A DNA stretch of 64,000 nucleotides, from the NCBI RefSeq assembly GCF_024399475.1, contig NZ_CP101620.1:2399608-2463607 (forward strand). The letters run 5' to 3'. The position numbers were made by a program, and so were the translations under genes. Positions 7,088-42,038 of the stretch are shown here, one piece after another. How positions within the stretch are numbered: position 1 is the stretch's first letter; the number at the start of each line of letters is the position of its first letter. The notes beneath the pieces are model-generated. The model was not told the DNA's origin, searched no databases, and saw only the letters and a list, made by a program, of their open reading frames with translations. The DNA is from Allocoprobacillus halotolerans. GTDB lineage: Bacteria; Bacillota_I; Bacilli_A; Erysipelotrichales; Coprobacillaceae.

Positions 7088-10000
7088 ATGGATAAAATGC
7101 TTATATTGTTGAAACAACTTCATCTTGAAGATGATGTTTCAGCTTTAAAACGTGCATATATTGAACGTGTTATTGTGCATAAAGATAATGCTTATACATT
7201 TTATATTGGTTCCTCACACATTGTTCCTCTAACAGAAATTCGTTTATTATTTGCGGCTAAAAAGGAATTTCCTTATCCATGTGAATTCCTTTTTAACTGG
7301 GCTTCTTCCTATACAGCTCAAGATGTGATTGAATATGCTTTGTTTATCTTTGATGGTTTGAAACAACGCTTTCCACAAATTGATTTCATTGATAAGGAAT
7401 TATTGACATTTGAAAATAATACATTACAAATTGAAGTTGTCAATGAAATACAGTTTCAACAATTAGAAAAGCTATATAAAATTTTTGATAAGTATTTTAA
7501 TAAATTTGGTATGCAAATTGGTTTTCGTGCTTATATTGATCAAAATAATCAAACTTATCAATCGATTCAAGAAGAAATGGATGCTTTAAATGAGGTTAAA
7601 GTAGATATGAAAACTTTTGATCAGGTTGAATCAACTCCCAAAAAGGAAAACAAACCCAAATATCAATCTTATAAAAAAGATTATTTTTCATTATCTATAG
7701 ATGAAATTGATGATACTGTTAAAGAAGTTATGATTCAAGGTTATATTTTTAAAGAGGATTCTAAAAAAGTCAAATCAGGAAAAACAATTCAATCTTTATA
7801 TGTAACAGATTATACAAACAGTATTGTTGTAAAACGCTTTGAAAACAAAGGTGGAAATAGTCTTGAAGAAATGAATAAGGTGAAAAAGGGTGATAAATGG
7901 GTACGTGTGAAAGGGACTGTAGAATATGATACATATATGAAAGATACGGTCATTATTGCTAGAGAAGTAGAAGTCATTCCATCACCTAAAATTCGTCAAG
8001 ATCAAGCTGAAAAGAAACGTGTTGAATTGCATGTTCATTCAAAAATGTCTGCTATGGATGGTATTGGAAGTATTTCTGAATATATCGAAAGAGCGGCTTA
8101 TTGGGGACATCAAGCTATCGCAGTGACAGATCATGGGAATGTACAGTCTTTTCCTGAGGCACAAATGGCGAGTATCAAAAATAAGATAAAAATGATCTAT
8201 GGTGTAGAAATGTATATGATTGATCCTTCTTTTACAGTTGTTTATAATGAGAAAAAAGTATCTTTGAAAGATTTGACATTTGTTTCATTTGACCTTGAAA
8301 CGACAGGATTATCAGTCATGGATGATGATATTACAGAATTTGGTGCTGTTAAAATTAAAAATGGGCAAGAAATTGATCGTATTCAAAGCTTAATTAAGCC
8401 TAAGAAGCGTATTTCTCAAAAGATTACAAATTTAACACATATAACGAATGAAGATGTTAAAAATGCACCTACAATAGAAGAATTTATTCCTCGTATTTTG
8501 GAATTTTTAAAGATGATGTGATTGTTGCACACAATGCTACCTTTGATGTCGGTTTTTTAAATGAAATCTTAGTACGCTATGGATATCAAAAATTCACAAA
8601 TCCAGCGATTGATTCATTAACTCTTGCATGGAAACTTCTACCTGATTTAAAAGGTTATCGTTTAGGAAATGTTGCGAGACATTATCGTATTCCTTATGAT
8701 GGCGATGATGCCCATAGAGCTGATTATGATGCAGAAGTTTTAGCTGGTGTCTTTAATATGATGTTGCATGATTTAATGCAACAGGGATATTATGACTTGA
8801 TTGATATGAATGCAATGGAATGTCCACAAGCCTATAAAATTGTGCGACCAAAACATATGTGTGTACTTGCTAAAAATAAAACTGGGTTAAAGAATATGTT
8901 TAAACTTGTTTCTGAAGCAAATACAACATATTTTGAGAAAGTTTCACGTATTCCACGTGAGCGTCTTGAATTTTATCGTGAAGGATTACTATTTGGAAGT
9001 GGATGTTATAACTCTGAAATATTTGATTTGGCGATGACAAGAAGTCTTGATGAATTAAAACAAGCCATGGCATTTTATGATTATATTGAAATTATGCCAT
9101 TAGATATATGTCAATATTTTGTTGAAAGAGGGCGTATTGATACTCAAGAAGATTTAATTCGTATTTTACGTCGTATTGTTGATACTGCTAAAGATATGGG
9201 AAAAATGATTGTTGCGACGGGTGATGTTCATTATTTAGATCAAAAAGATAAAATATTTAGAGATGTATTTACTTGTAATCCAAAGATTGGTTTGGGTGGA
9301 GCTTTACATCCTTTAACGGATAGAAATAATCCAATGGCTTGGACACCGGATGAGTATTTCAGAACAACTCAGGAAATGATGGATAGTTTATCTTATTTAA
9401 ATGAAAGTGAAAAATATGAATATGTTGTTGAAAATACAAATAAAATTGCTGATATGATTGATGGAACATTTCATGTTGTTCATGATAAATTATTTACACC
9501 TCATATTGATAATGCTGATGAAAATTTACGTCAGTTATGTTTTGATAATGCACATAAGCAATATGGTGAGGTTTTACCTGAAATTGTTGAAAAGCGTTTA
9601 ACCAAAGAGTTGGACAATATTATTAAACATGGATTTGGTGTTATTTATTATATTGCTCATAAGCTTGTTAAAAAATCTAATGAAGCCGGATATCTTGTTG
9701 GAAGTCGAGGTTCTGTAGGATCATCCTTTGTTGCGACAATGGCGAATATTTCTGAAGTTAATCCATTGCCACCGCATTATTATTGTCCTCATTGTCAATA
9801 TAATGAGTTTATGCCAGAAGGATATATTGCTAATGGATATGATTTGCCTAATAAAACATGTCCAAAATGTGGACAACCATTAAAAGGTGATGGTCATAAT
9901 ATTCCATTTGAAACTTTCTTGGGATTTAATGCTGATAAGGTTCCAGATATTGATTTGAACTTTTCTGGCGATTATCAACCAACAGCTCATGCCTATACAA

Positions 10001-11405
10001 AAGAAATATTTGGTGAAAGTCATGTTTATCGTGCCGGTACGATTTCGACTGTTGCTGAAAAAACAGCTTATGGATATGCGAAAGGATATGCCGAATTAAT
10101 GGGCAAAGAAAATAGTATCAGTCAAGCTGAATTAGAAAGAATTGCTAAAGGATGTACGGGTGTTAAGCGTACAACAGGACAACATCCTGGTGGTATTATT
10201 GTTATTCCTGAAAGTATGGATGTCTTTGATTTTACACCTTATCAATATCCTGCTGATGATTTGAGTGCTGAGTGGAAGACAACGCATTTCGACTTCCATG
10301 CTATTCATGATAATGTCTTGAAATTTGATATCTTAGGTCATGTTGATCCAACTGTTATTAGAATGTTACAGGATTTAACGGGAGTCAATCCAAAAGATAT
10401 TCCAACAAATGATCCTCAAGTCATGAGTTTATTTAACTCTACTGAGGCTTTAGGCATTGATTTGAGTTTTCTTAATTGTAAAACTGGTGCATTAGGATTG
10501 CCTGAATTTGGTACTAAATTTGTGCGTGGGATGTTAGAACAGACGCACCCAACATCATTTAGTGATTTAGTTATTTTATCAGGTCTTTCTCATGGGACAG
10601 ATGTTTATTTAGGAAATGCTGAAACGTTGATTAGTTCGGGAACTTGTACACTACAAGAAGTTATTGGTTGTCGTGATGATATTATGGTTTATTTGATTGA
10701 AAAAGGATTACCAAATAAAGATGCTTTTGATATTATGGAGTGTGTTCGTAAAGGAAAATCTCCTGCAGTCTTCCCAGAAAAAAATATGAAGAACTAATGC
10801 GCAAATATGATGTTCCAACATGGTATATTGAATCATGTAAAAAAATTAAATACATGTTCCCAAAAGCTCATGCTGCAGCCTATGTTTTAAGTGCTGTCCG
10901 TGTGGCCTGGTGGAAACTTTATTATCCAAGAGAATACTATGCTGTTTATTTTACAACACGTTGCGATGCCTATGACATTGAAACTATGATTCAAGGACGT
11001 GATGTTGTTTATAACAAATATCAAAGTATTTTAAATGATAAACAAAATGGTGTTAAAATTTCCAATAAAGAAGAAGCTTTAATTTCAGTTTTTGAAATTG
11101 CTTTAGAAATGTTTGAACGTGGTTATCATTTTAGTAATATTTCTTTAGAAAAATCTGATTCTCAAAATTTTATTATGGATCCTGATGATGATATGGCTTT
11201 ATTGCCTCCATTTGTATCTATTGATGGTTTAGGAACATCGGTAGGTGATAGTGTTGTTGAAGCACGTCAGAAAAATAAATTTTTATCTAAAGAAGATGTT
11301 ATGAAACGTACTAAACTAACAAATAATCAAATTGAATTTTTAACGAAACTTGGAGCTTTTGAAAATATGTCTGAAGAAAATCAATTATCATTATTTGATT
11401 TATAG
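7088..11405 (+). CDS. polC: DNA polymerase III PolC-type alpha subunit (two apparent single-base deletions)
   Basis: Gram-positive replicative polymerase with built-in 3'-5' exonuclease. Order of domains: N-terminal region, OB fold, PHP domain starting ELHVHSKMSAMDG, DEDD exonuclease (SFDLETTGL ... VAHNATFDVGF) inserted in PHP, then the polymerase core with VGSRGSVGSSF, a zinc ribbon (CPHC ... CPKC) and the catalytic PDIDLNFSG. Two frame breaks, near 8504-8511 (T5 or A3) and 10778-10784 (A7), are each repaired by one extra base and give about 1439 residues, the usual PolC length. Since PolC is essential and the pieces meet without loss, sequence error is far likelier than decay. Confidence 0.96.
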
Positions 11406-13632: not shown

Positions 13633-13914
13633 AAATAAGGCATCTTTATTAGGATTGGCAATGCGTGCCAGAAAAATTGTGACGGGAGATGTTTTATTGA
13701 AAAACATTCGTCAAAAAAAGTTTATTATGTAATGATTGCAGAAGATGCAAGTGAGAATACTAAGAAAAAGTATGTTGACAAATGTACTTATTATCATGTT
13801 GATTATCAGATTCTAGGAAAGGTTGAAGAGATTTCTCAAGCTATTGGAAAGGACAATCGTGTTGCTTTAGGTATATTGGATAAAGGTTTTGCAAATAAAA
13901 TCAAATCAAAATGA
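13622..13914 (+). CDS. ylxQ: YlxQ, ribosomal protein L7Ae-like RNA-binding protein (one apparent base deletion)
   Basis: L7Ae/L30e-fold protein, probably a kink-turn RNA binder. The start ATG at 13622 lies inside the end of ylxR. The N-terminal [22 protein letters not shown] is in one frame and [14 protein letters not shown] in another; adding one A to the A7 run at 13713-13719 joins them through [16 protein letters not shown] and gives 97 residues, a normal length. Only the second part has an in-frame ATG that could be taken as a separate gene, but it has no ribosome-binding site. Confidence 0.9.
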
Positions 13915-13927
13915 GGAGGTTGATATT

Positions 13928-15777
13928 ATGGCAAAAAAGAATACATCAGCAAAAAAGAAAGGAAACCATCATAAAAAGAAATTAATTTCTAATATTCCTC
14001 AAAAAAAGGAAGAAAAGAAATTAGGGGATGGAATTGTTGAATATGAAGAAGGAATTACAGTTGGTGAATTAGCTGAAATGATTGGACAGACACCAGCCAA
14101 TGTTATTAAAGTTTTATTTATGCTTGGTACAATGGTGACAATCAATTCATCACTCAGTGATGAACAAGTTGAATTGATCTGTCTTGAATATGGCTATGAA
14201 GTGAAAAAGAAAGTCATTGTCAGTGAAATTAATTTTGAAGATATTGAAATTGTTGATGATGAAGCTGATTTGGTCGGGCGTCCACCTGTTGTTACAATTA
14301 TGGGGCATGTTGACCATGGAAAAACAACATTGCTTGATTATATTAGAAAATCAAGAGTAGCTGAAGGTGAATTTGGTGGAATTACGCAACATATTGGTGC
14401 TTATCAGGTTGAAGTGAGTGGTAAAAAAATCACATTCCTTGATACACCTGGTCATGAAGCTTTTACAGCTATGCGAGCTCGTGGAGCACAATTAACAGAT
14501 ATTGTTATTATTGTTGTAGCTGCAGATGATGGTGTGATGCCACAAACAAAAGAAGCTGTTGATCATGCTTTAGCGGCTGGTGTGCCAATCGTTGTTGCAA
14601 TTAACAAAATTGATAAAGATGGTGCTGATCCTGAACGTATTAAAGGAGAAATGAGTGAACTTGGACTTATGCCTGAAGAATGGGGAGGAGAAACAGTTTA
14701 CTGTAATATTTCTGCAAAAAAGGAATTGGTATTGAAGAATTGTTAGAGACTTTAACTGTCGTTGCTGAATTAGCGGACTTAAAAGCGAATCCAAAACGTT
14801 ATGCTTATGGAAGTGTCGTTGAAGGACGCTTAGATAAAGGACGTGGACCTGTTGCTACTTTACTTGTTCAAAATGGAACATTAAGAGCTGGAGATCCAAT
14901 TGTTGTTGGAACAGCTTTTGGTCGTGTTCGTCAGATGCTTGGTGATAATGGTAAAGAATTAAAAGAAGCTGGACCATCAACACCAGTTGAAATTACCGGT
15001 TTAAATGATGTTCCTGTTGCCGGAGATAAATTTATGGCATTTGAAACTGAAAAAATGGCACGTCATGTTGGTGAAGAAAGACAAAAAGCAAAACAAGAAC
15101 AAGATCGTGGTATAAGTTCTGCAATGAGTTTAGATGATTTATTTAATCAAATTAAAGAAGGACAAGTTGCTGATTTGAATATTATTGTCAAAGCTGATGT
15201 AAACGGAACAGCTGAAGCTGTCAAAGGTTCATTAGAAAAGATTGATATTGATGGTGTCCGTGTCAATGTCATTCGTTCAACTGTTGGAGCTATTAGTGAA
15301 TCTGATGTTTTATTAGCAAGTGCTTCTAAGGCTATCATTTATGGATTTAATGTGCGTCCAGATGCTAATGTAAGACGAAAAGCTGAAGAAGAGGGTGTTG
15401 AAATCAGACTTCATAACATCATTTATAAAATGGTTGAAGAAATTGAAGCAGCAATGCGTGGTATGTTAGCTCCTGAACTTGAAGAAGTTGTTACTGGTCA
15501 AGCTGAGATTAGACAAGTTATTAAAGTTTCTAAAGTTGGAAATATTGCTGGTTCATATGTAACAGATGGTTATATTCGTAGAGACTGTGGTATTCGTTTG
15601 ATTCGTGAAGGTGTTGTCATTTATGAAGGAAAATTAGCTTCATTAAAACGTTTTAAAGATGATGCTAAGGAAGTATCGACAGGATATGAATGTGGTATGA
15701 CAATTGAAAACTATAACGATATTAAAGAAGGAGATATCATTGAAGGTTTCATTATGGAAGAAGTCGAAAGAAAATAG
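13928..15777 (+). CDS. infB: Translation initiation factor IF-2 (one apparent base deletion)
   Basis: GTPase that places initiator fMet-tRNA on the 30S subunit. The start is the ATG at 13928, preceded by GAGGAGG. A short Lys-rich N-terminus is followed by the IF2 N domain, then G1 [10 protein letters not shown]3 DTPGHEA, G4 NKID and the C-terminal domains. The frame breaks in the A6 run at 14716-14721, where one extra A restores [19 protein letters not shown] and about 616 residues. This is a compact IF-2 (Bacillus about 716) lacking a long N-terminal extension. Confidence 0.95.
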
Positions 15778-22505: not shown

Positions 22506-24311
22506 ATGAGTATTGATCAGTCACATATTAGAAATTTTTCTATTATCGCTCATATTGATCATGGAAAATCGACTCTTGCAGATAGAATATTACAACTGAC
22601 CGGAGCAGTAAGTGACCGAGATATGAAAGACCAATTACTTGATAGTATGGATTTAGAAAGAGAAAGAGGAATTACTATTAAGTTGAATGCTGTTCAGTTA
22701 AACTATACTGCTAAAAATGGTGAAACTTATCTATTACATTTGATAGATACACCGGGTCATGTTGACTTTACATATGAAGTTTCACGTTCTTTAGCTGCCT
22801 GTGAAGGTGCTGTTTTAGTTGTTGATGCTGCTCAAGGAGTAGAAGCACAAACTTTAGCAAATGTTTTTTAGCTTTGGATAACGATTTGGAAATTTTGCCA
22901 GTTATTAATAAAATTGATTTACCAAGTGCCGATCCACAACGTGTTATTCATGAAGTGGAAGATATCATTGGTTTACCAGCGGATGAGGCACCTTTAATTT
23001 CTGCCAAAACCGGATTAAATGTAGGAGATGTTTTAGAAGATATTGTTAAAAATGTTCCTGCTCCTCGTGGAGATGTTGAACATCCTACACAAGCTTTAAT
23101 TTTTGATTCGTATTATGATAGTTATCGTGGCGTGATTGTTTTTGTATGTATCAAAGAAGGACGTATTCGTGTGGGCGACCATATTCGCTTTATGGCCACA
23201 GATGCTGCCTATGAAGTTCTTGAAGTAGGAGTGAGAACTCCAAAAGAAGTAAAAAAGAAGAACTTGTAACAGGGGAAGTTGGTTGGATTGCGGCCTCAAT
23301 CAAATCAATTAGTGATGTCCATGTTGGTGATACCATCACAACTTTAGAACAACCCGCACAAACACAATTACCTGGATATCGTCAATTAAATCCGATGGTT
23401 TATTGTGGTTTATATCCTGTTGATAATGCTAAATATAAAGATTTGCGAGAAGCATTAGAAAAAATGAAACTTAGTGATTCATCTCTCGTCTTTGAACCAG
23501 AAACTTCACAAGCTTTAGGCTTTGGGTTCCGTTGTGGTTTTTTAGGTCTTTTACATATGGATGTGATTGAAGAACGTCTAGAAAGAGAGTTTGATCTGGA
23601 ATTAATTGCAACTGCACCATCTGTTATTTATCATTGTTATTTAACTGATGGCACAATGATTGAGATAGATAATCCATCAGCTTTACCAGGTCCTCAACGC
23701 ATTGATCACATTGAAGAACCATATGTGAAAGCATCTATTATGACACCTAATGAATATGTTGGACCAATTATGGAATTATGCCAGTCAAAACGTGGTGAAT
23801 ATCAGGATATTGAATATATTGATGACTTACGAAGAAATGTGATTTATTTGATTCCATTAAGTGAAATTGTTTATGATTTCTTTGATAAGTTAAAATCTTG
23901 TACAAAAGGTTATGCGTCATTTGATTATGAATTAGATGGTTATCGAGAAAGTCGTTTAACACGTATGGATATTTTATTAAACGGCGATGTTGTTGATGCA
24001 TTGTCTACTATTGTTCATAAAGACTTCGCATATAATCGAGGACGTATTATTTGTGAAAAATTAAAAGAAATTATTCCAAAACAAATGTTTGAAGTGCCTA
24101 TTCAAGCAGCAATTCAAGGAAAAGTCATTGCCCGTACAAATATTAAAGCAATGCGTAAAAATGTTTTAGCTAAATGTTATGGTGGTGACATTTCGCGTAA
24201 GAAGAAACTCTTGGAAAAACAAAAGAAGGAAAAAAACGTATGAAAGCTGTAGGAAGTGTAGAAATACCTCAAGAAGCTTTTATGGCTATTCTATCTGTTG
24301 ATGATGATTAA
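22506..24311 (+). CDS. lepA: Elongation factor 4 (three apparent base deletions)
   Basis: Ribosome-associated GTPase (EF-4/LepA) that acts on stalled or assembling ribosomes. G1 AHIDHGKST, the ERERGITI switch, G3 DTPGHVD and G4 NKIDLP are followed by the LepA-specific C-terminal domain ([23 protein letters not shown]... then [25 protein letters not shown]). Frame breaks lie in T6 22864-22869, A6 23251-23256 and A4 24221-24224; one extra base at each rebuilds a continuous 602-residue protein ending at 24311, the normal length. No residues are lost at any junction. Confidence 0.96.
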
Positions 24312-27327: not shown

Positions 27328-27346
27328 AAAAATATGATCTTTTTTT
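27318..27346 (+). terminator. Terminator upstream of comG
   Basis: AAGATCAT / ATGATCTT hairpin with A-rich loop followed by seven T, overlapping the end of the hydrolase gene. Confidence 0.85.
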
Positions 27347-27401
27347 GTTAAAAAAAGAAAAATTGAAAAATAATGCGTATATATATAATAGGAGGGTTAT
27401 T

Positions 27402-28387
27402 ATGAACGAATTATTTGAGAAGATGATTTATCGTGCGCTCAATCAAAATGCAACTGATATTCACATGTTATTAAAAGAAGATTTGAAAATTCAATTTCGT
27501 ATTTTTGGTGTATTAAAGAACTATGAGGTTATGGAAAGTGAGAAGGGTTATAAGCTTATGAATTTTATTAAATATCAGTCCATGATACATACAAATTATC
27601 GTTTGATGCCACAGACTGGTAATATTTCCATTGAAATGAACCAAAAAACATATTTTTTAAGAATTTCATATTTACCATCACTAGAATTTGAAAGTATTGT
27701 CATTAGAATTCTAAACAACCATGAATTACGTTCGATTCAAGAATTAACGTATCAAAAAGAAATTCAAGATTATCTCTATTGGTTATCACGTCAAAACAAT
27801 GGCTTGTTTTTAATTAGTGGCGCAACTGGATCAGGAAAGTCAACAACACTCTACACTCTTTTAAAACAGATTTTATCTGATTCTCGTAAAAATATTATCA
27901 CAATTGAAGATCCTATTGAAATTCATTTGGATGGATGTTTACAAATAGAGTTAAATGAGAAAATCGGTATTACATATCATGATACTTTAAAACAAATTTT
28001 AAGACATGATCCAGATGTGATTATGATAGGTGAGATTCGTGATGAAGAAACTGCGAAAATCGCTTTGACTTGTGCTTTAACGGGGCATTTGGTATTAACA
28101 ACAATTCATGCGAGTAATGCACCATTATCTATTAAAAGATTTATGAACTTAGGCATTCATGAAGCTGATATTTTAGATGTCGTAGTTGGGGTCATTTCAC
28201 AACGTATGAAATATGATATCCAAAACAAAAAAGCCGTTGTTCTTTCTGAATTAATGAAGAAAAAGAAATCGAACATTATCTTTTACAAGAAAACTATTCA
28301 TATTTATCTTTTCGAAAGGGCGCTTTGCAATTAGTAGACCAAGGGTTTTCAGTGAATTTGTTTCAAGAGGAGTTAAGCGATGAATAA
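27402..28387 (+). CDS. comGA: Competence pseudopilus ATPase ComGA (one apparent base deletion)
   Basis: Cytoplasmic secretion ATPase powering assembly of the DNA-uptake pseudopilus. Walker A GATGSGKSTTLYTLL, the Asp box (ITIEDPIEIHL), Walker B DPDVIMIGEIRDEETA and the His box LTTIHASN are all present. GGAGG precedes the ATG at 27402. The frame breaks in the A5 run at 28260-28264; one extra A continues it to a stop at 28387 and 328 residues, overlapping the comGB start by eight bases as is usual in this operon. Confidence 0.95.
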
Positions 28388-29377
28388 AGATTATCTTTTA
28401 TTAAAAAATCTCTATAGTTTATTGGAATCAGGATATAGTATTGAAGAAACACTTTGTTTATGTCAACAAATGATCCATCATCCTGTTGTTGATGATATGT
28501 TGAAACAGTTAAATCAAGGTGAAGCAGTTGAAACTATTTTACTACAATCTTCATTACCTGATTTATTTCAAGAATATTTTCGTTTCTTTCAAAATAAGAA
28601 TTGTTTATCAGAAGCAATTAAAAAAAGTTTAGATATTTGCATGATGAAAGAAGATTATCAAAAGAAATTAAAGTCGCGATTAACATACCCTTCTATATTA
28701 ATGACATTTTTATTTCTCTTTTCTTTATTTGTTGTTTTTGTTTTATTGCCTAATGTCAATCAACTTTTTATATCATTTCAGATTGAAAAATCTCTATTGA
28801 TTCAAGTTTTATTTGCTTTCTTTTACATAATGCCTTGCTTTATTATTGTTTTTGTTTTTTTGGCTCTATATCTTATTATAAGGCTCGTTTATGGATTAAA
28901 GCATAAATTATATAGAGTTATTGAACTTTATCTAAAATGGCCTGTATTTAAAACAATTTTACAAAAGTATTTCTCATTAAAATTTGCTTTATATTTTCAT
29001 GAATTATTAAATGAAGATATGGATAGTACAAGTGTTATTAAAGTTTTAAATGAACAAATGACGAATAGTGATTTAAAAATAGTCTTATATGAAATGAATA
29101 ATCGTTTATATGGAGGTGAAAATCTAGAAGAAATTTTGGAAGATTTTGAATACTTTGATGGTTTATTTATTTCTTTTTTCAAATGTATATGAAAAATCCT
29201 CAACAAAAACATTCTTTATCTTATTACATTCAAGTGACTTTTGAATATCTGGATTATTGGATAGAAAAATTTTTAAAATATCTTATTCCAGCTATTTATT
29301 GTTTTGTCGCTATATTTGTTATTACGATTTATATCGCTATTATTATTCCAATGATGAATTCTATATCAAATATATAA
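28380..29377 (+). CDS. comGB: Competence pseudopilus membrane protein ComGB (one apparent base deletion)
   Basis: GspF/PilC-type inner-membrane platform protein. Two GspF-like halves (about residues 15-125 and 195-300) and three hydrophobic segments are visible, including one at 28700-28870 and one near the C-terminus (PAIYCFVAIFVITIYIAIIIP). Adding a T to the T6 run at 29174-29179 joins FISFFQMYMKNPQQKH and yields 332 residues. Confidence 0.93.
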
Positions 29378-29394
29378 CAGAAAGGACAATAATT

Positions 29395-29700
29395 ATGTTA
29401 AATAAAAAAGGATTTACTTTAATAGAAATGATCTTCTGTATTAGTGTTATTCTCATTATTTTATTACTTGTTATTCCCAATGTGACATCCAAAAATACTG
29501 TCGTCAAAAATAAAGGCTGTGATGCTCAAATTGAGGTTGTTAACTCACAGATACTTCTTTATGAAATAGAAAATGGAAAATTACCAACTAAGATTTCTGA
29601 TCTTACCAGTGGCACACAGCCATATCTTACAGAAAAGCAAGGTATTTGTCCTAATGGTAAAAAGATTGCTATTAAAAATGGGCAAGCCTATGTTAAATAA
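29395..29700 (+). CDS. comGC: Major pseudopilin ComGC
   Basis: Major subunit of the transformation pilus. The prepilin start MLNKKGFTLIEMIF has the G-FTLIE cleavage site for a ComC-type peptidase and the hydrophobic helix; the Cys near residue 41 (NKGCDAQIEVV) and a second at about 87 could form the known disulfide. 101 residues. AAAGGA before the ATG at 29395 fixes the start, and it overlaps comGD by 11 bases. Confidence 0.94.
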   Translation: MLNKKGFTLIEMIFCISVILIILLLVIPNVTSKNTVVKNKGCDAQIEVVNSQILLYEIENGKLPTKISDLTSGTQPYLTEKQGICPNGKKIAIKNGQAYVK

Positions 29701-30084
29701 ATCTGGTTTTACAATGATTGAAACGCTTTTTGTTTTGATGATTATGTGCATGTTATTTTGTTTATCTATGAATATTCATATTCCACAGAAAAGTCATACC
29801 AAAAAGATTGAAGAAATAACACATTTTCTATATCAGGCTAAATTGTCAGCTATGTCACAAAAACATACTGTGACTGTAACCTTTTCTTCAAATGATATTT
29901 CTTTTGAATCAAATGATGTTTCTCACTCTTTTTGCTTGACGATAATGATTCATTTGAAGAATATCAATTGAGTTTTAATTTAAATGGAAATATTTCAGGG
30001 GCAAAAACATTAACTTATCATTGTGGGAATCAGACATATGAGTTTGTTTATCAGATTGGAAGTGGAACATTTTATGTGCGATAA
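29690..30084 (+). CDS. comGD: Minor pseudopilin ComGD (one apparent base deletion)
   Basis: Prepilin-like protein starting MLNKSGFTMIETLFVLMI with the cleavage motif and membrane helix. One extra T in the T5 run at 29929-29933 extends it through LLDDNDSFEEYQLSF to a stop at 30084, 131 residues. It overlaps comGC and comGE by about ten bases each, matching comG order. Confidence 0.9.
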
Positions 30085-30283
30085 AAAAGGGTCAACTCTT
30101 ATAGAAAGTTTATTTGCATTTGAAATTTTTATCACTGTTATTATTCTTTTTGTTGGTTTGTTTTCAGGACTTTATGAAAAAGAAAGCACAATTCAAAAGA
30201 ATTATCAGATGCTTTTAGAAAAGGAGCGTGAGTTCACATATTCACAAGATTACATAGATATCATCGAGATGGCTTTACATTAA
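30074..30283 (+). CDS. comGE: Minor pseudopilin ComGE
   Basis: Short prepilin-like protein beginning MCDKKGSTLIESLFAFEIFI. The start overlaps the comGD stop. As sequenced it has 69 residues. If the A4 run at 30219-30222 lacks one A, it would instead end at the TGA at 30229-30231 just after an AAAGGAG that would serve comGF. Assignment by position and the prepilin N-terminus. Confidence 0.8.
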   Translation: MCDKKGSTLIESLFAFEIFITVIILFVGLFSGLYEKESTIQKNYQMLLEKEREFTYSQDYIDIIEMALH

Positions 30284-30711
30284 TTGAAGTCTTACTATCG
30301 CTATCCATTACACTTATAATTGTTTTAACACTTACGAGTTTATTTCATCTGATCCAATATGGATATGGTTCACATGATCAAAATAATGAAGATATTTATA
30401 TTGCTGCTAAACAATGTAGTCAATACACGATTGGTACGACTTATATAGAAGCAGGCGATGTATTACGTTATAGAAATTTTGAAGGAGAAGAAACAACTTT
30501 AGAATGGAATCAACAAAGACTTGTTAAAAAACCTGGATATGAAATATTATTGTTTGATATTGATGATGTTTCATTTTCTATTGAAAATGATTTTATTTAT
30601 ATGCATGTTATTAGAAATCGTCAAAATTATACGTTTTTATTGACATATGCCTCATTGTGGCAGGAAGAAGGGGATAATAATGAAACTTTACCATCAGATA
30701 TTCAAGAATAA
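30238..30711 (+). CDS. comGF: Competence protein ComGF (start codon unresolved)
   Basis: An open frame not starting with ATG, GTG or TTG: it is free of stops from 30232 to 30711 and reads RDGFTLIEVLLSLSITLIIVLTLTSLFH, a clear prepilin-type N-terminus, then about 130 further residues in ComGF style (RYRNFEGEETTLEWNQQRLVKK, then DIDDVSFSIEND). AAAGGAG at 30220-30226 is suitably placed, with ATA at 30238 in the position of a start codon. Either a base error hides the start or an AUA start is used. Overlaps comGE and comGG, as expected for this operon. Confidence 0.82.
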   Translation: MFTRLHRYHRDGFTLIEVLLSLSITLIIVLTLTSLFHLIQYGYGSHDQNNEDIYIAAKQCSQYTIGTTYIEAGDVLRYRNFEGEETTLEWNQQRLVKKPGYEILLFDIDDVSFSIENDFIYMHVIRNRQNYTFLLTYASLWQEEGDNNETLPSDIQE

Positions 30712-31066
30712 ACAGGGCTCTGTTTTACAAATTGTTTTAATTCTTTTTATGATTTTAACTTTATCATTATCTATGACAACTTTTTCACTGCTTCAATCTG
30801 CCCGACAATTACAAACAATTGATATTTTAATGAAACAAAAAAGATTGGAGATATCACTTGTGAAGTATTATAGTGATTGTGTACAAACAGATCTTTTACT
30901 AAGTGACAGCTATGATTTTCAAAATTATCAAATTGAAACCACTGTTGATGATTTAGGGGATTATTATGAAGTGACGACAAATATTGAAGCGCCTACGTTT
31001 CAATATTCATTCTTAACAAAAATAGAAGTACAAACCGGTGTTATTTTAAATTTTGAATATATTTAA
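30680..31066 (+). CDS. comGG: Competence protein ComGG-like
   Basis: 128-residue protein with a hydrophobic N-terminal segment after KNKQGSVLQIVLILFMILTL, resembling a degenerate prepilin, followed by an acidic region. It is the seventh gene of the comG set, and overlaps the comGF end by 32 bases. The in-frame ATG at 30647 lacks a ribosome-binding site, so 30680 is preferred. ComGG diverges fast, so the name rests mostly on position. Confidence 0.72.
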   Translation: MKLYHQIFKNKQGSVLQIVLILFMILTLSLSMTTFSLLQSARQLQTIDILMKQKRLEISLVKYYSDCVQTDLLLSDSYDFQNYQIETTVDDLGDYYEVTTNIEAPTFQYSFLTKIEVQTGVILNFEYI

Positions 31067-31315: not shown

Positions 31316-31875
31316 ATGGCTGTTAATATCAAAGAATTAAAAGCAGGAAATGCATATACTGAAAACAATGATTTATTTTTATGTATTTCTAACGAGCAAA
31401 ACAAACAAGGTCGTTTATCAGGAAAATATATGGTAAAGAGAAAAAACATGAGAACAAGTGCGATTACTGAAGTTTCTTATAATCCAACTGCAAAAGTTGA
31501 TATTGCTTTAATTGAAAAAGAAAAATGCAATATTTATATGATTCAGGAGATATGCTTGTTTTCATGGATAATGAAACATATGAACAAATAGAAATTCCTG
31601 GTAGTCGCCTTGAATGGGAAAAGAACTTTTTAAAACCATCCGATGAAGTGGAAGTGACAAGCTATCAAAGCGAAGTTTTAGGTGTTCAATTACCAATTAA
31701 CGTTGCTTTCCAAATCACAGAAACAGAACCTGCAGTGAAAGGAGATACTGCTACTGGTGCTACAAAGAATGCAATCATTGAAACTGGATATCAAATCAAA
31801 GTTCCTTTATTTATCAATGAAGGAGAAATTGTTCTTGTCAATACAGTAGATGGTAAATATCAAGGAAGAGCGTAA
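31316..31875 (+). CDS. efp: Elongation factor P (one apparent base deletion)
   Basis: Translation factor that relieves stalling at consecutive prolines. The two halves, [11 protein letters not shown]... and [25 protein letters not shown]..., join when one A is added to the A5 run at 31521-31525, giving 186 residues, the family length. The C-terminal [35 protein letters not shown] is characteristic. The loop that normally reads Pro-Gly-Lys-Gly (Lys modified in many bacteria) aligns without gaps to Gln31-Gly32-Arg33-Leu34 here, an unusual form. It sits upstream of spoIIIAH, as efp does before spoIIIA in Bacillus. Confidence 0.95.
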
Positions 31876-31935
31876 GCTCTTTTTTCATAATTAAGCCTGT
31901 TGAATCATATAGTATATAGAAAAAGGAGAATGAAT

Positions 31936-32394
31936 ATGAATAAACAGGCTTTTACATTTTTAACATTATTTAGTCTTATCCTTGTATTATCCATCTATTA
32001 TATTATGTTGCCCCCAACAGCCCAAAATGAAGTTGTCCAAAATGATATGTCTACAATTGAACAATTACAAAATCAGTTAGATAAAAAAAGAGAAGATATT
32101 ATCACTAAGAACAATGAAATCATTGCAAAAGAGTCCAGTACATCCGAATCCATCAATGAAGCTTTAGAAACAATTAGTGAAACAAAGAATGTAACAGAAA
32201 AAGAAAAGTCAATTGTTACAAAACTTAATGAAATGGGATATCAAGAAAGTTATGTGGAGATTGATAATCAAACTGTGAAAATAACGATTTTAAAAAAGGA
32301 AGCAACACAAAGCGATGCATCTCAAGTGATTAAGGAAGTTTTAAATTTAGTGGGTGATTCTTATCAAGTAGAAGTTAAATTTATTGAAGAATAA
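31936..32394 (+). CDS. spoIIIAH: SpoIIIAH-like sporulation protein
   Basis: 152 residues: a single N-terminal membrane helix (FLTLFSLILVLSIYYIMLP), an acidic coiled-coil-like region (about 50-90) and a C-terminal YscJ/FliF-type ring-building domain ending VVKEVLN-like sequence and VEVKFIEE. This is the SpoIIIAH pattern; in Bacillus it pairs with SpoIIQ in the channel between mother cell and forespore. AAAGGAG precedes the ATG at 31936. Strikingly, no spoIIIAA to spoIIIAG genes precede it; efp is directly upstream. Confidence 0.82.
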   Translation: MNKQAFTFLTLFSLILVLSIYYIMLPPTAQNEVVQNDMSTIEQLQNQLDKKREDIITKNNEIIAKESSTSESINEALETISETKNVTEKEKSIVTKLNEMGYQESYVEIDNQTVKITILKKEATQSDASQVIKEVLNLVGDSYQVEVKFIEE

Positions 32395-32450
32395 AACTTG
32401 TATTTTTGTCACTTTTTATATACAATAGTAGATAGAAGAGAGGTAATGTT

Positions 32451-32798
32451 ATGGCACATAATGAATACTATACTTATACGCAAGGTCGTGTGAATGGAAA
32501 AATTCTCATGAATGTCCAAGTGTTTGATGAAATTACAAAAAGAACTGTTAATGAAATGAAAAATGTTTCTTTAGATACATCTAAGGGAATTCAAATTCCT
32601 GGAACAAAGAAGGTTGTTAACTGTACTATCAAAGATAATGAAGTTTATATTTGTATCCATGTTCGCATTAAATATGGTGTTAATATTTCATCAATAACAA
32701 AAGAAATTCAAGAAAAAATTGCAGTAGCAGTCAAACAGATGACGGATGTTGATGTAAAACACATTAATATTGAAGTCGATAATATTGAATTCGATTAA
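32451..32798 (+). CDS. Asp23/Gls24 family protein (YqhY-like)
   Basis: 115-residue Asp23/YloU-family protein: GRVNGKILMNVQVFDEI, ICIHVRIKYGVNISSITKEIQEKIAVAVKQMT and DVKHINIEVDNIEF match the family. In Bacillus the homologue yqhY lies between accBC and nusB; here it keeps its place next to nusB although accBC are absent from the locus. A role in envelope or fatty-acid homeostasis is known only loosely for the family. A terminator follows. Confidence 0.85.
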   Translation: MAHNEYYTYTQGRVNGKILMNVQVFDEITKRTVNEMKNVSLDTSKGIQIPGTKKVVNCTIKDNEVYICIHVRIKYGVNISSITKEIQEKIAVAVKQMTDVDVKHINIEVDNIEFD

Positions 32799-32832: not shown

Positions 32833-32898
32833 TTTATTTTTAGATGTATTTGTGGTAGAATGTAATATATTTGAAAATTGTGGAGGCAACTTATTGAT

Positions 32899-33303
32899 AT
32901 GGAAAAAACACATCGAAAAACAGCAAGAGAAATTGCTACAATTTGTATTTATCAAAATTTATTAGTTGAGGCATCTCTTGATGATATGCATACTTATATA
33001 TCAGAAAATGAAAAACTGGCATCAAGCGAAGATTCATTGAAATTTGCAACATGGTTAGTAGAAACAACTTTGCAAAATAAATCGTCTTATCAGGAGTTAT
33101 TAGAAAAATATTTAAAGAAGGGTTGGACTTTTGAACGTTTAAGTGTCATGGAAAGAGCTATTTTACTCATTGCAACATGTGAACTCTTAGAATCAGATCT
33201 TCCTAAGACAATTGTTATTAACGAAGCAGTTGTAAATGCTAAAAAGTTCTGTGATGATGATTCTTATAAATTTATTAATGGAATTTTAGGACATATTGGA
33301 TAA
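32899..33303 (+). CDS. nusB: Transcription antitermination factor NusB
   Basis: All-helical RNA-binding protein of the rRNA antitermination complex. AREIATICIYQ near the start and ERLSVMERAILLIATCELL, PKTIVINEAVVNAKKF, FINGILGHI match NusB. 134 residues. GGAGG lies 12 bases before the ATG at 32899, a little long; an upstream in-frame TTG is contained in the same ribosome-binding region and is less likely. Stop and xseA start share a base. Confidence 0.93.
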   Translation: MEKTHRKTAREIATICIYQNLLVEASLDDMHTYISENEKLASSEDSLKFATWLVETTLQNKSSYQELLEKYLKKGWTFERLSVMERAILLIATCELLESDLPKTIVINEAVVNAKKFCDDDSYKFINGILGHIG

Positions 33304-38292: not shown

Positions 38293-38301
38293 GTGAAAAA
38301 C

Positions 38302-39950
38302 ATGTTAAAAAGTTTATATGTTTCATCATTTGTAATTATTGATCAAATAAAAATTGATTTTTTAGAAGGAATGAGTGTATTAACCGGTGAGACTGGTGCA
38401 GGAAAATCAATTATTATAGATGCTATTGGTCAATTGTGTGGAAATCGTTCTTCTGCATCTTTTGTAAAAAAAGGATGTCGTGAAGCAGTGATTGAAGGTG
38501 TTTTTGAGGTAGATATAACACCTCAATTAGAAGCTATATGTCAACAATTACATATTGATATAGAGAATGAATTTATTATCACAAAACATATTCAAAGTAA
38601 TGGAAAAAGTCAGGTAAAGATTAATTACCAGACTTCAACTCATAATGCCTTAAAATTACTGATGCCCTTTTTTATTGATATCCATTCTCAATTTGAAACT
38701 CAAAAACTTTTTGAAGAAAAAAGCATATTCATCTTTTAGATGAATATGCTAAAAACAGTTTACAAACACTTTTCAATGATTATCAAAAGGAATATCAACA
38801 ATATAAAGATATTCAACATCAATTAAACCAAACTATTCAAGAAGATATGTCAGATGAACAACTCGATTTTTTAAAGAGTCAATTACAGGAAATAGATACA
38901 TGTTCTTATACTGATGAAGAAGTTGATCAATTAGAAGAAGAATTAAAAGTTTTACAAAATTTTGAAAAAATGAACGAACATATTCAAAACTTTGAACAAT
39001 TAATGAATAATCATCAAGGTGTTTTGCCAAAATTAAAAGAAGCTACTTTTGAAATACAAACACTATCAACATATCATGAATTTGAAAAAACTATTGAACA
39101 CATTCATAATATTTATTATAACTTACTAGATGAAGTAGAAACTATCCTTGATACTTATCGTTCTTTTCAATTTGATGAATATCGTTTTAATGAACTCCAA
39201 GATATTTTATTTCAAGTCAATCGTTTAAAAAGAAAATATGGTTTTACAATGAAAAGTATCCAAGACTATCGAGAAGATTTAGTTCAGAAAATCACAGCTA
39301 TAGAAAATCGTGAAGAACATATTTTTCAATTACGACAACAACTTTCTACACAAGAAAAGAAAACGAAAGAATTGGCACTTCAATTACATCAAGTAAGACA
39401 AGAATATGCAAAAAAATTTGAATCTGAAATTCAAAAAGAGTTAAAAGACCTTTATTTAGATAAAGCTATTTTTAAAGTTCAAATCAATGAAACAGATTTA
39501 CAACCATTTGGATGCAGTGATGTTAAATTGATGGTTGCGATTAATCAAGGACAGGATTTAAGTTTAATGAATGAAACAGCAAGTGGTGGGGAAATCTCTC
39601 GTTTAATGCTTGCGATTAAAACAACTATTTTAGAATATAATAGTATTGATACGATTATATTTGATGAAATAGATACTGGAGTGAGTGGTAAAGTCGCAAC
39701 TAAAATAGGTGAAAAAATGAAAAAAACGGCTATGAAAAAGCAGGTGATTTGTATTACTCATTTACCTCAAGTTGCAGCCTTAGCGAATTATCATTATTGT
39801 ATTGAAAAGCAATCTCATGATGATGAAACAGTCACTTCAATACATCTTTTAAATCATGAACAAAGAATAACAGAAATTGCAAAAATGTTGTCAGGTGAAG
39901 TCATGACACTGGAAGCAGTTGCTAATGCTAAAAAATTATTAAATGTATAA
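38302..39950 (+). CDS. recN: DNA repair protein RecN (one apparent base deletion)
   Basis: SMC-like ATPase acting early at double-strand breaks. Walker A GETGAGKSIIIDAIG is near the N-terminus, a long coiled-coil (39000-39450) separates it from the ABC signature ASGGEISRLMLAIK and Walker B DTIIFDEIDTGVSG. The break in the A6 run at 38717-38722 is repaired by one A (EEKKHIHLLDEYAKNS), giving 549 residues. AGGTG before the ATG at 38302 decides the start over an in-frame GTG at 38293. Confidence 0.95.
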
Positions 39951-40006: not shown

Positions 40007-41004
40007 ATGCTTTGCTTTTGAAAAAGTTGAGTATATCACTCATCACAGTCGTTTCATTATTATTGCCATCCTTTCAAGTCTTTGGAGCAGATGTCATTCT
40101 TGGTGGACAGTCGATTGGCATTGAACTTGATTATGAAGGTGTTATGATAACTGGTACTTATGAAATTTCTATTGACAATCATACATATGATCCTGCCAGT
40201 GATGGTTATATGACAGGAGATTTAATCACTCATGTCAATCATCAAAAAGTTGAGTCTATCAGTGAACTCATGCAAGCTGTTAAAACAAATGTAGAAAGTA
40301 ATCAAGACATTATTTTAACATTAAAGCGTGATCAGCAGACCATTGAAAAAGGATTAAAATTTCAAACAAAAGATAACCAATTTACCACTGGTTTATACGT
40401 TCAAGATGGCTTAACTGGAATTGGGACTATGACATACTATAATCCTGAAAATCATCATTTTGGAGCTTTAGGACATATGATGTATGATACTTCATTATCT
40501 AGTCAAATGGTTATTAAAAATGGAACTATCTATAATTCTTATGTTAAAAAAATCAAACCTTCTCAAAATGGAAATCCAGGAGAAAAAATTGCTGATATTG
40601 GTTCTATTGAAATAGGAACATTATTTGATAATAACAACTATGGAATATATGGACAATATACTGATATTACTGAACAATTGCAAACGATTTCCACTGCTTC
40701 GATGGATGAAGTAGAACTTGGAGAAGCATATTTTTTAACGGTTTTAGATGGCCATCAGGTAAGTCGCTGTTCTATACGTATCACAAATTTAAAAAAACAA
40801 AATGAACCTGCTGTAAAAGGAATAACTTTTGAAATAACAGATAAAAAAGTTCTGTCATTAACAAATGGTATTGTTCAAGGAATGAGTGGTTCGCCTATTA
40901 TTCAAAACAATAAACTCGTTGGGTGTGTAACCCATGTTGACATGAACAATGTTCATCAAGGTTATGGATTATACATTGATTGGATGCTCAAAAACGACAA
41001 ATAG
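40007..41004 (+). CDS. spoIVB: SpoIVB serine peptidase
   Basis: S55-family protease secreted by the forespore to trigger pro-sigma-K processing. Signal-like N-terminus, PDZ domain (about 35-110), then the peptidase domain with GALGHMMYD (catalytic His) and GMSGSPIIQNNKLVGCVTHV (catalytic Ser). The observed frame begins at a TTG at 40012. The ATG at 40007 has better spacing from GGGAGG and joins if one T is added to the T4 run at 40016-40019. I use 40007 (332 residues); the choice changes only a few residues. recN precedes and spo0A follows, as in Bacillus. Confidence 0.93.
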
Positions 41005-41100: not shown

Positions 41101-41216
41101 TTGATTTAAATTCATTTTTTCACATTTATTTTTTGTAGAAAGACTAGGAATCTGTTTTTGACACATATATAATAAAATTGCTGATGGGAATAAATCAAAA
41201 GGGAAAATTGGAAATT

Positions 41217-42038
41217 ATGAAAACATTTATAGCCATTGATCAACCAGAATTATTGGAAAATATAAAATTTAATTTAGAAAAAACAAATAAATTTACAATT
41301 GTAGGATCTGCACATAATGGTATAGATTGTTTGAATTTCTTTAACCAAAAAAACTGTGATTTATTAATACTTGATTTGATGTTGTCTGAAATTGATGGGA
41401 TTGGAGTTCTCAAAAAACTCAAAGAAATGAATAAACAAACATATCATAAGGTTGTATGTATCACACAATTTACTAATCAGACAATTTGTAATATGCTTGA
41501 AGAATTAGGTGTTACATATTGTTTTAAATATCCTTTTGATATTCAACATTTCATTCAATCAACATTATATATCACAGCTTCTGAATTTCAAAAGCAAGAA
41601 TTAATGGATCAGGATGAATCAGAAAAATATAAAAAAGTTAAAATTGAAAATGAAATTACTGAAATCTTACATGAGGTAGGGATTCCTGCTCATATAAAAG
41701 GATATATGTATCTCAGAACTGCAATTTTAACAACTTATTATAACATTGAAATTCTTGGACAAGTTACAAAAGTTTTATATCCTGATATTGCTAGAATGTA
41801 CAATACAACATCATCACGTGTAGAAAGAGCCATTCGTCATGCTATTGAAGTTGCATGGAATAGGGGAAATACAGATGCTATTGATGATATTTTTGGATAT
41901 ACAGTTTCAGCTGTGAAAGCAAAACCAACAAACTCAGAATTCATTGCTATGATTGCTGATAAACTGAGATTAGCTCATAAAACTGATAATGTTAAAAAAG
42001 AAAGTCTTTATAATTATAAAAACTATATGTTAAAATAG
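41217..42038 (+). CDS. spo0A: Sporulation master regulator Spo0A
   Basis: Response regulator that commits cells to sporulation. Receiver domain residues 1 to about 120, with phosphoacceptor Asp in [15 protein letters not shown] and Lys in FKYPFD. The C-terminal DNA-binding domain contains [46 protein letters not shown] and the C-terminal [20 protein letters not shown], the Spo0A hallmark. 273 residues. The ribosome-binding site is weak (GGAAA). Located after spoIVB, with 0A boxes upstream. Confidence 0.96.

Follow-up and report, generated by a model that had tools for sequence, protein, structure and literature searches.

The SpoIIIA-SpoIIQ (A-Q) complex, the so-called 'feeding tube', is described as a link between the mother cell and the developing spore. 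The SpoIIIAA-AH proteins are treated as universal in spore formers (PMC4605598). In C. difficile, where spoIIQ lies downstream of spoIID, the Q-AH pair is implicated mainly in engulfment: spoIIQ and spoIIIAH mutants fail engulfment, while 10-20% of the cells of a spoIIIA (AA-AF) mutant achieve it, and none of spoIIQ, spoIIIAH and spoIIIA is needed for sigma-G (PMC4605598). The same paper cites zipper-like engulfment driven by Q-AH alone in wall-less B. subtilis. Spore formers without several spoIIIA genes have been described in Lysinibacillus and the Planococcaceae (PMC7924749, PMC3533761), and within the Erysipelotrichia, which include spore formers, no spoIIIA homologue was found, SpoIIQ being apparently present (Davis et al, 2013; PMC3749518). 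In a KO-based survey of 2024, spoIIQ and 'spoIIAH' figure among the genes that set RF39 apart from Erysipelotrichales by their additional presence (PMC10868615).

The window analysed here is the whole stretch of 64,000 nucleotides (G000:C1:2399608-2463607), and the genome searched is a single contig of 2.93 Mb. The relevant features are as follows.

31316-31875, forward strand: efp (elongation factor P), with EFP domains on two overlapping open reading frames
31866-31885, forward strand: terminator-like hairpin of efp (AAGAGC-GTAA-GCTCTT, then a T-run), read from the sequence and lying directly before the promoter
31885-31913, forward strand: sigma-E-like promoter of spoIIIAH, TCATAAT (31885-31891), 14 nt, CATATAGT (31906-31913)
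31936-32394, forward strand: spoIIIAH, with a transmembrane helix at residues 3-24 and a ring-building-motif domain at about 40-152
32451-32798, forward strand: yqhY-like gene of the Asp23 family (PF03780, E 2e-11; synteny in relatives), 3' neighbour of spoIIIAH
32878-33303, forward strand: nusB (TIGR01951 over cut-off)
40012-41004, forward strand: spoIVB, sporulation signalling protease (PF05580, E 3e-64)
41178-42038, forward strand: spo0A, sporulation master regulator (PF08769, E 5e-43; TIGR02875 over cut-off)
Outside the window, L055:1198-1833 (G000:C1:1153745-1154380): spoIIQ, between spoIID and mreB and downstream of spoIID as in clostridia

The efp, spoIIIAH, yqhY-like and nusB genes follow one another on one strand with no gene in between; this order had been claimed in an earlier note on the same DNA and was confirmed, as was the absence of AA-AG and accBC at the efp site. 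The genome shares with the B. subtilis A-Q complex the families and folds of SpoIIIAH and SpoIIQ, the chromosomal site of spoIIIAH, the compartment classes of the promoter-like elements, and spoIVB and spo0A downstream in identical order. It differs in that AA, AC/AD, AE and AG are absent (AB and AF having been checked at the locus only) and in that spoIIIAH stands singly, preceded by a promoter-like element of its own. Directly 5' of efp, inspection by eye showed a pilus operon of comG type at 27345-31066, made up of comGA, comGB, comGC and several short reading frames that resemble pilins; ComGA and ComGB resemble secretion motor parts, and it is remotely conceivable that they share a role with the reduced A-Q system.

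Within the window, spoIVB and spo0A bear out the earlier note's remark on intact spore genes, but elsewhere in this genome spoIID (L055:251-1163) is frameshifted and spoIVFB is probably broken as well. The efp gene is itself frameshifted near 31520-31526 at an A-rich run, the intact protein of a relative aligning to it in two frames, and both efp and spoIID are intact in relatives. Many essential genes look similarly disrupted: apparent frameshifts were also seen in infB (13889-15777), polC (7088-11405) and lepA (22874-24243), these three identified by eye, and in a recN-like gene (38293-39950). All of these are probably sequencing errors in the form of long-read indels, so that the apparent pseudogenes of this assembly are untrustworthy.

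The spoIIIAH gene starts with ATG, has a GGAG ribosome site 7 nt upstream and encodes a product of 152 aa, which matches the PF12685 profile of SpoIIIAH at 40.8 bits (cut-off 30.6; E 3e-10). A profile of 51 homologues, searched against the PDB, retrieved 3uz0_A at E 4.5e-26 and 3tuf_A at E 3e-23, the next match lying at 0.12, and B. subtilis SpoIIIAH is the only convincing match among solved structures. The AlphaFold2 model (pLDDT 84) has 3uz0_A as its best fold match (TM 0.90, rmsd 1.2 Å) and is predicted to consist of an N-terminal membrane helix and a ring-building-motif domain as in 3TUF and 3UZ0; after the SpoIIIAH chains, its distant fold matches are the type III secretion ring proteins EscJ and PrgK. 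By profile and fold, the product of the gene at 31936, described in the earlier note as SpoIIIAH-like, is a genuine SpoIIIAH. It is 95% identical to SpoIIIAH of Massilimicrobiota sp. An134, which places the genome in the Erysipelotrichales, and its dN/dS is about 0.03-0.07 against four Massilimicrobiota relatives; the literature was searched for reports that Massilimicrobiota form spores, and none was found. The dN/dS of SpoIIQ is similar, and both proteins are under purifying selection.

Among the five places in the genome that encode an M23 domain, SpoIIQ is the one between spoIID and mreB. In a search with a profile built from 29 homologues, B. subtilis SpoIIQ (3tuf_B) came first at E 4e-46, and the M23 protein ranked next reached 5e-8. 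The model (pLDDT 84) superposes on the same chain at TM 0.90 and 1.2 Å with 41% identity, and B. subtilis SpoIIQ is its closest match among solved structures. With the NCBIfam model for SpoIIQ (NF053738) it reaches E 2e-48 and 165 bits, under the strict cut-off of 250, and this may explain why it was missed by automatic annotation. The remaining M23 candidates were set aside: L056 encodes a membrane protein with multiple helices and has no spore context, L057 is SpoIVFA-like and lies beside an M50 protease, and L058 and L059 fall below cut-off. A gene for a SpoIVFA-like M23 protein and one for an M50 protease are located just upstream of the window. The His that forms the first zinc ligand is replaced in 29/29 SpoIIQ homologues (by Asn in 28 and Ser in 1), which indicates that the LytM domain is probably structural and not catalytic, whereas the zinc site of C. 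difficile SpoIIQ is intact according to PMC4982068.

Genome-wide profile searches for SpoIIIAA, SpoIIIAC/AD, SpoIIIAE and SpoIIIAG gave no match in this genome, and AB and AF, looked for at the locus, are absent there. The search for a complete spoIIIA operon elsewhere in the genome came back empty for AA, AC/AD, AE and AG, and the suggestion that AA-AG had been relocated is unsupported for these genes. Among 244 genomes of Erysipelotrichales, AE, AA and AG were each over cut-off in 0/244, all three being recovered in a B. subtilis control, and no operon partner was found beside AH in any Erysipelotrichales locus examined. Two genomes gave weak AE matches that are interrupted by stop codons and were regarded as noise; matches to AA in 59 of the 244 genomes, of up to 34 bits, cover part of the profile in frames of ~300-570 aa and were taken as other ATPases, with none in the genome studied here. 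SpoIIIAH is, as far as searched, the sole retained gene of the spoIIIA operon, in contrast to Lysinibacillus, which is without AA, AB, AD and AF and keeps others such as AE, and to C. difficile, where the other spoIIIA genes are kept.

The arrangement efp, AH, Asp23/YqhY and NusB on a single strand is kept in nearly all loci fetched from the same family, and the pairs efp-AH or AH-nusB persist in several other families of the class. Of 263 genomes drawn from the wider class, 71 have an AH match over cut-off and 6 an AE match, all six belonging to family f13. In f13 the same site (L126) reads efp, SpoIIIAC, AD, AE, AF, AG and AH and leaves no room for AA or AB, with similar gene sets in L127-L129. 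Because f13 has efp followed by AC to AH at the same site, the lone AH is a positional orthologue that stayed behind when its neighbours were lost in place. Family f13 resembles a possible intermediate stage, from whose operon AA and AB had already gone. The f13 loci (L126:2110-6250 of G287, and L127-L129) thereby contain a spoIIIA operon without its ATPase gene at the locus. In a further f13 genome (G311), a gene of the SpoIIIAH family at L130:5771-6430 lies away from efp and adjoins a dapB-like gene, with no SpoIIIAE detectable there, a placement that reflects either relocation or independent loss. The AE matches in this outgroup family are strong (160 bits or more), and the AG of the f13 operon reaches 16 bits with TIGR02830, a profile that is weak for diverged AG; since this model is insensitive and AB and AF were searched at the locus only, the absence of AG, AB and AF is less certain.

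What remains of the operon is accompanied by SpoIIQ. When positives were defined by a match to the C-terminal domain for AH, by E below 1e-15 for SpoIIQ and by a canonical match for Spo0A, the 244 genomes comprised 59 with AH, 68 with SpoIIQ and 67 with Spo0A, all three being found in 57. AH and SpoIIQ occur together in 58 genomes, AH only in 1, SpoIIQ only in 10 and neither in 175, and Spo0A is present in 58/59 AH genomes, the exception being 79% complete. The co-occurrence of the three has p 1e-44 or lower with relatedness ignored, and the pattern covers both families and many genera. Where Spo0A-negative genomes matched the N-terminal part of PF12685 alone (frames of ~100-730 aa), the match was attributed to chance similarity of a membrane helix and left out of the count. 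In G017, G043, G051, G056, G096, G154, G185 and G222, Spo0A and SpoIIQ are found with no accepted AH match at E 0.01; in these eight genomes, either AH has diverged further or the system has shrunk to SpoIIQ. The earlier note had supposed that AH survives alone, perhaps with SpoIIQ; both were found, and the reduction extends beyond a single genome to the order. Relative to the reports cited above (PMC3749518, PMC10868615), both of which missed it, the retention of SpoIIIAH at its ancestral site together with its partner, throughout the order and in much of the class, appears to be new.

The upstream regions of the two genes were compared with the sigma-E and sigma-F consensus of B. subtilis in sequences that are related to one another. 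A sigma-E-like element lies about 26-38 nt 5' of AH in 32/34 sequences from Erysipelotrichales (shuffled mean 0.25); taken singly, the element in the window has p about 0.14, which is not significant. A sigma-F-like element lies 5' of SpoIIQ in 26/29 (shuffled mean 0.21). Crossed elements, that is sigma-F-like at AH or sigma-E-like at SpoIIQ, were not found, nor was a sigma-E-like element before AH in any of 6 f13 sequences, where AG directly precedes AH. The sigma-E motif is weak 5' of spoIID (7/30; shuffled mean 1.5) and reaches 4/22 against 1.3 in the mreB negative control. On sequence grounds, this pattern fits production of AH in the mother cell and of SpoIIQ in the forespore.

The interface between the two proteins was assessed at the contact residues named for B. 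subtilis in PMC12720343. On the SpoIIQ side, the equivalent of Leu109 is Leu in 28/29 and those of Tyr96 and Tyr116 are kept in 29/29; the equivalent of Leu118, a residue termed divergent in PMC12720343, is Pro in 29/29, and this contact is not conserved. On the AH side, Ala193 is kept in 32/33, Ile197 in 29/33, and Val212 and Phe214 in 33/33, and the columns in contact vary less than the others in this segment (mean entropy 1.20 vs 1.98 bits), with several contact positions differing from B. subtilis. The conservation of much of the interface suggests that Q-AH binding is maintained.

Within the family, the membrane helix of AH (residues 1-24; window 31936-32007) is its most conserved part, with an entropy of 0.31 bits against 1.30 for the domain, and SpoIIQ shows the opposite, with 1.43 for the helix and 1.04 for the domain. 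The AH helix is thus more conserved than a plain anchor needs, which leads us to infer that it has another, conserved membrane partner, for which SpoIVFA and SpoIVFB are candidates. Contact with the missing AA-AG can hardly explain the conservation of the helix in this lineage. The localisation of SpoIVFA in B. subtilis depends on the A-Q complex (review PMC3533761).

We consider it fairly probable that SpoIIIAH is functional, was left after the loss of AA-AG, and forms with SpoIIQ a trans-septal clamp or anchor without a secretion channel. AH would be expressed by the mother cell under a sigma-E-type promoter of its own and would sit in the outer forespore membrane through its one transmembrane helix. 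Its ring-building domain would bind SpoIIQ, which the forespore would express under a sigma-F-type promoter. The pair would act as a clamp or ratchet bridging both membranes during engulfment, and as a landmark keeping SpoIVFA-SpoIVFB, engulfment hydrolases and other proteins at the forespore, and no driven transport would pass through it. A secretion channel of the B. subtilis type is beyond the pair, since it requires the SpoIIIAA ATPase, a platform of SpoIIIAC/AD/AE and a ring of SpoIIIAG. Of the simplified feeding channel imagined in the earlier note, the retained pair stands, but the channel is unsupported: all recognisable motor and export-platform parts searched are missing, and a clamp or anchor explains the pattern better.

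Two observations from other species count against a clamp, namely that direct Q-AH contact is reported to be dispensable for sporulation in B. subtilis (PMC12720343) and that loss of SpoIIIAA-AF abolishes heat-resistant spores in C. difficile (PMC4605598), where a clamp alone is therefore insufficient. The unconserved Leu118 contact and the differing AH contact positions also weigh against it. For these reasons, two alternatives that retain transport were kept. SpoIIQ and SpoIIIAH could constitute a minimal passive channel in which aligned rings allow small molecules to diffuse without an ATPase or export platform. The modelled AH keeps the ring-building fold with its secondary resemblance to EscJ and PrgK, and the modelled SpoIIQ keeps its fold, both with predicted single-helix membrane anchors; however, one helix per protein provides no recognisable pore former in either membrane, and the ring models, which were derived for B. 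subtilis, are termed uncorroborated in PMC12720343. We regard such a pore as rather unlikely. It is also unlikely that the channel is complete, with AH working in a full A-Q machine whose AA-AG components are too diverged to detect or replaced by unrelated proteins. The low score of the f13 AG implies that AG, AF and AB could escape detection, and the unusual conservation of the AH helix is what a membrane partner would produce. Against this, AE, which scores at least 160 bits in the outgroup f13, is nowhere over cut-off in the 244 genomes, the AA matches are weak and partial, and no operon partners adjoin AH in the loci examined.

A view of SpoIIIAH as a remnant, or as a protein recruited to a task outside sporulation, would accord with its solitary place in a housekeeping cluster and with the spoIIIAH mutant being the mildest of the B. 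subtilis spoIIIA mutants (PMC4605598). We hold this to be very improbable, given its near confinement to Spo0A-positive genomes, its co-retention with SpoIIQ, its low dN/dS and the conserved sigma-E-like promoter. An artefact, in which the assembly dropped AA-AG or AH is a chance match, could be suspected from the several frameshifts, but the AH match is strong by both profile and fold and the same arrangement recurs in dozens of independent genomes, isolates included, which leaves this explanation a negligible chance.

The retained pair suggests that what the A-Q complex cannot do without is its clamp and not its engine of secretion. It can tentatively be hypothesised that the spore formers of the Erysipelotrichales and of much of the GTDB class use a two-protein SpoIIQ-SpoIIIAH trans-septal clamp with no secretion apparatus. 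Surveys based on KO miss the AH and SpoIIQ genes, so that genome-based predictions of sporulation are biased. An order keeping only SpoIIQ and SpoIIIAH is a natural experiment that inverts the picture from B. subtilis and separates clamp from channel, and the Erysipelotrichales offer gut anaerobes in which the two could be tested against each other. If the proposition is true, a conserved membrane partner of the SpoIIIAH helix would be expected as a side prediction, the essential and ancestral job of the A-Q complex would be adhesion or anchoring, and ATP-driven secretion would be dispensable.
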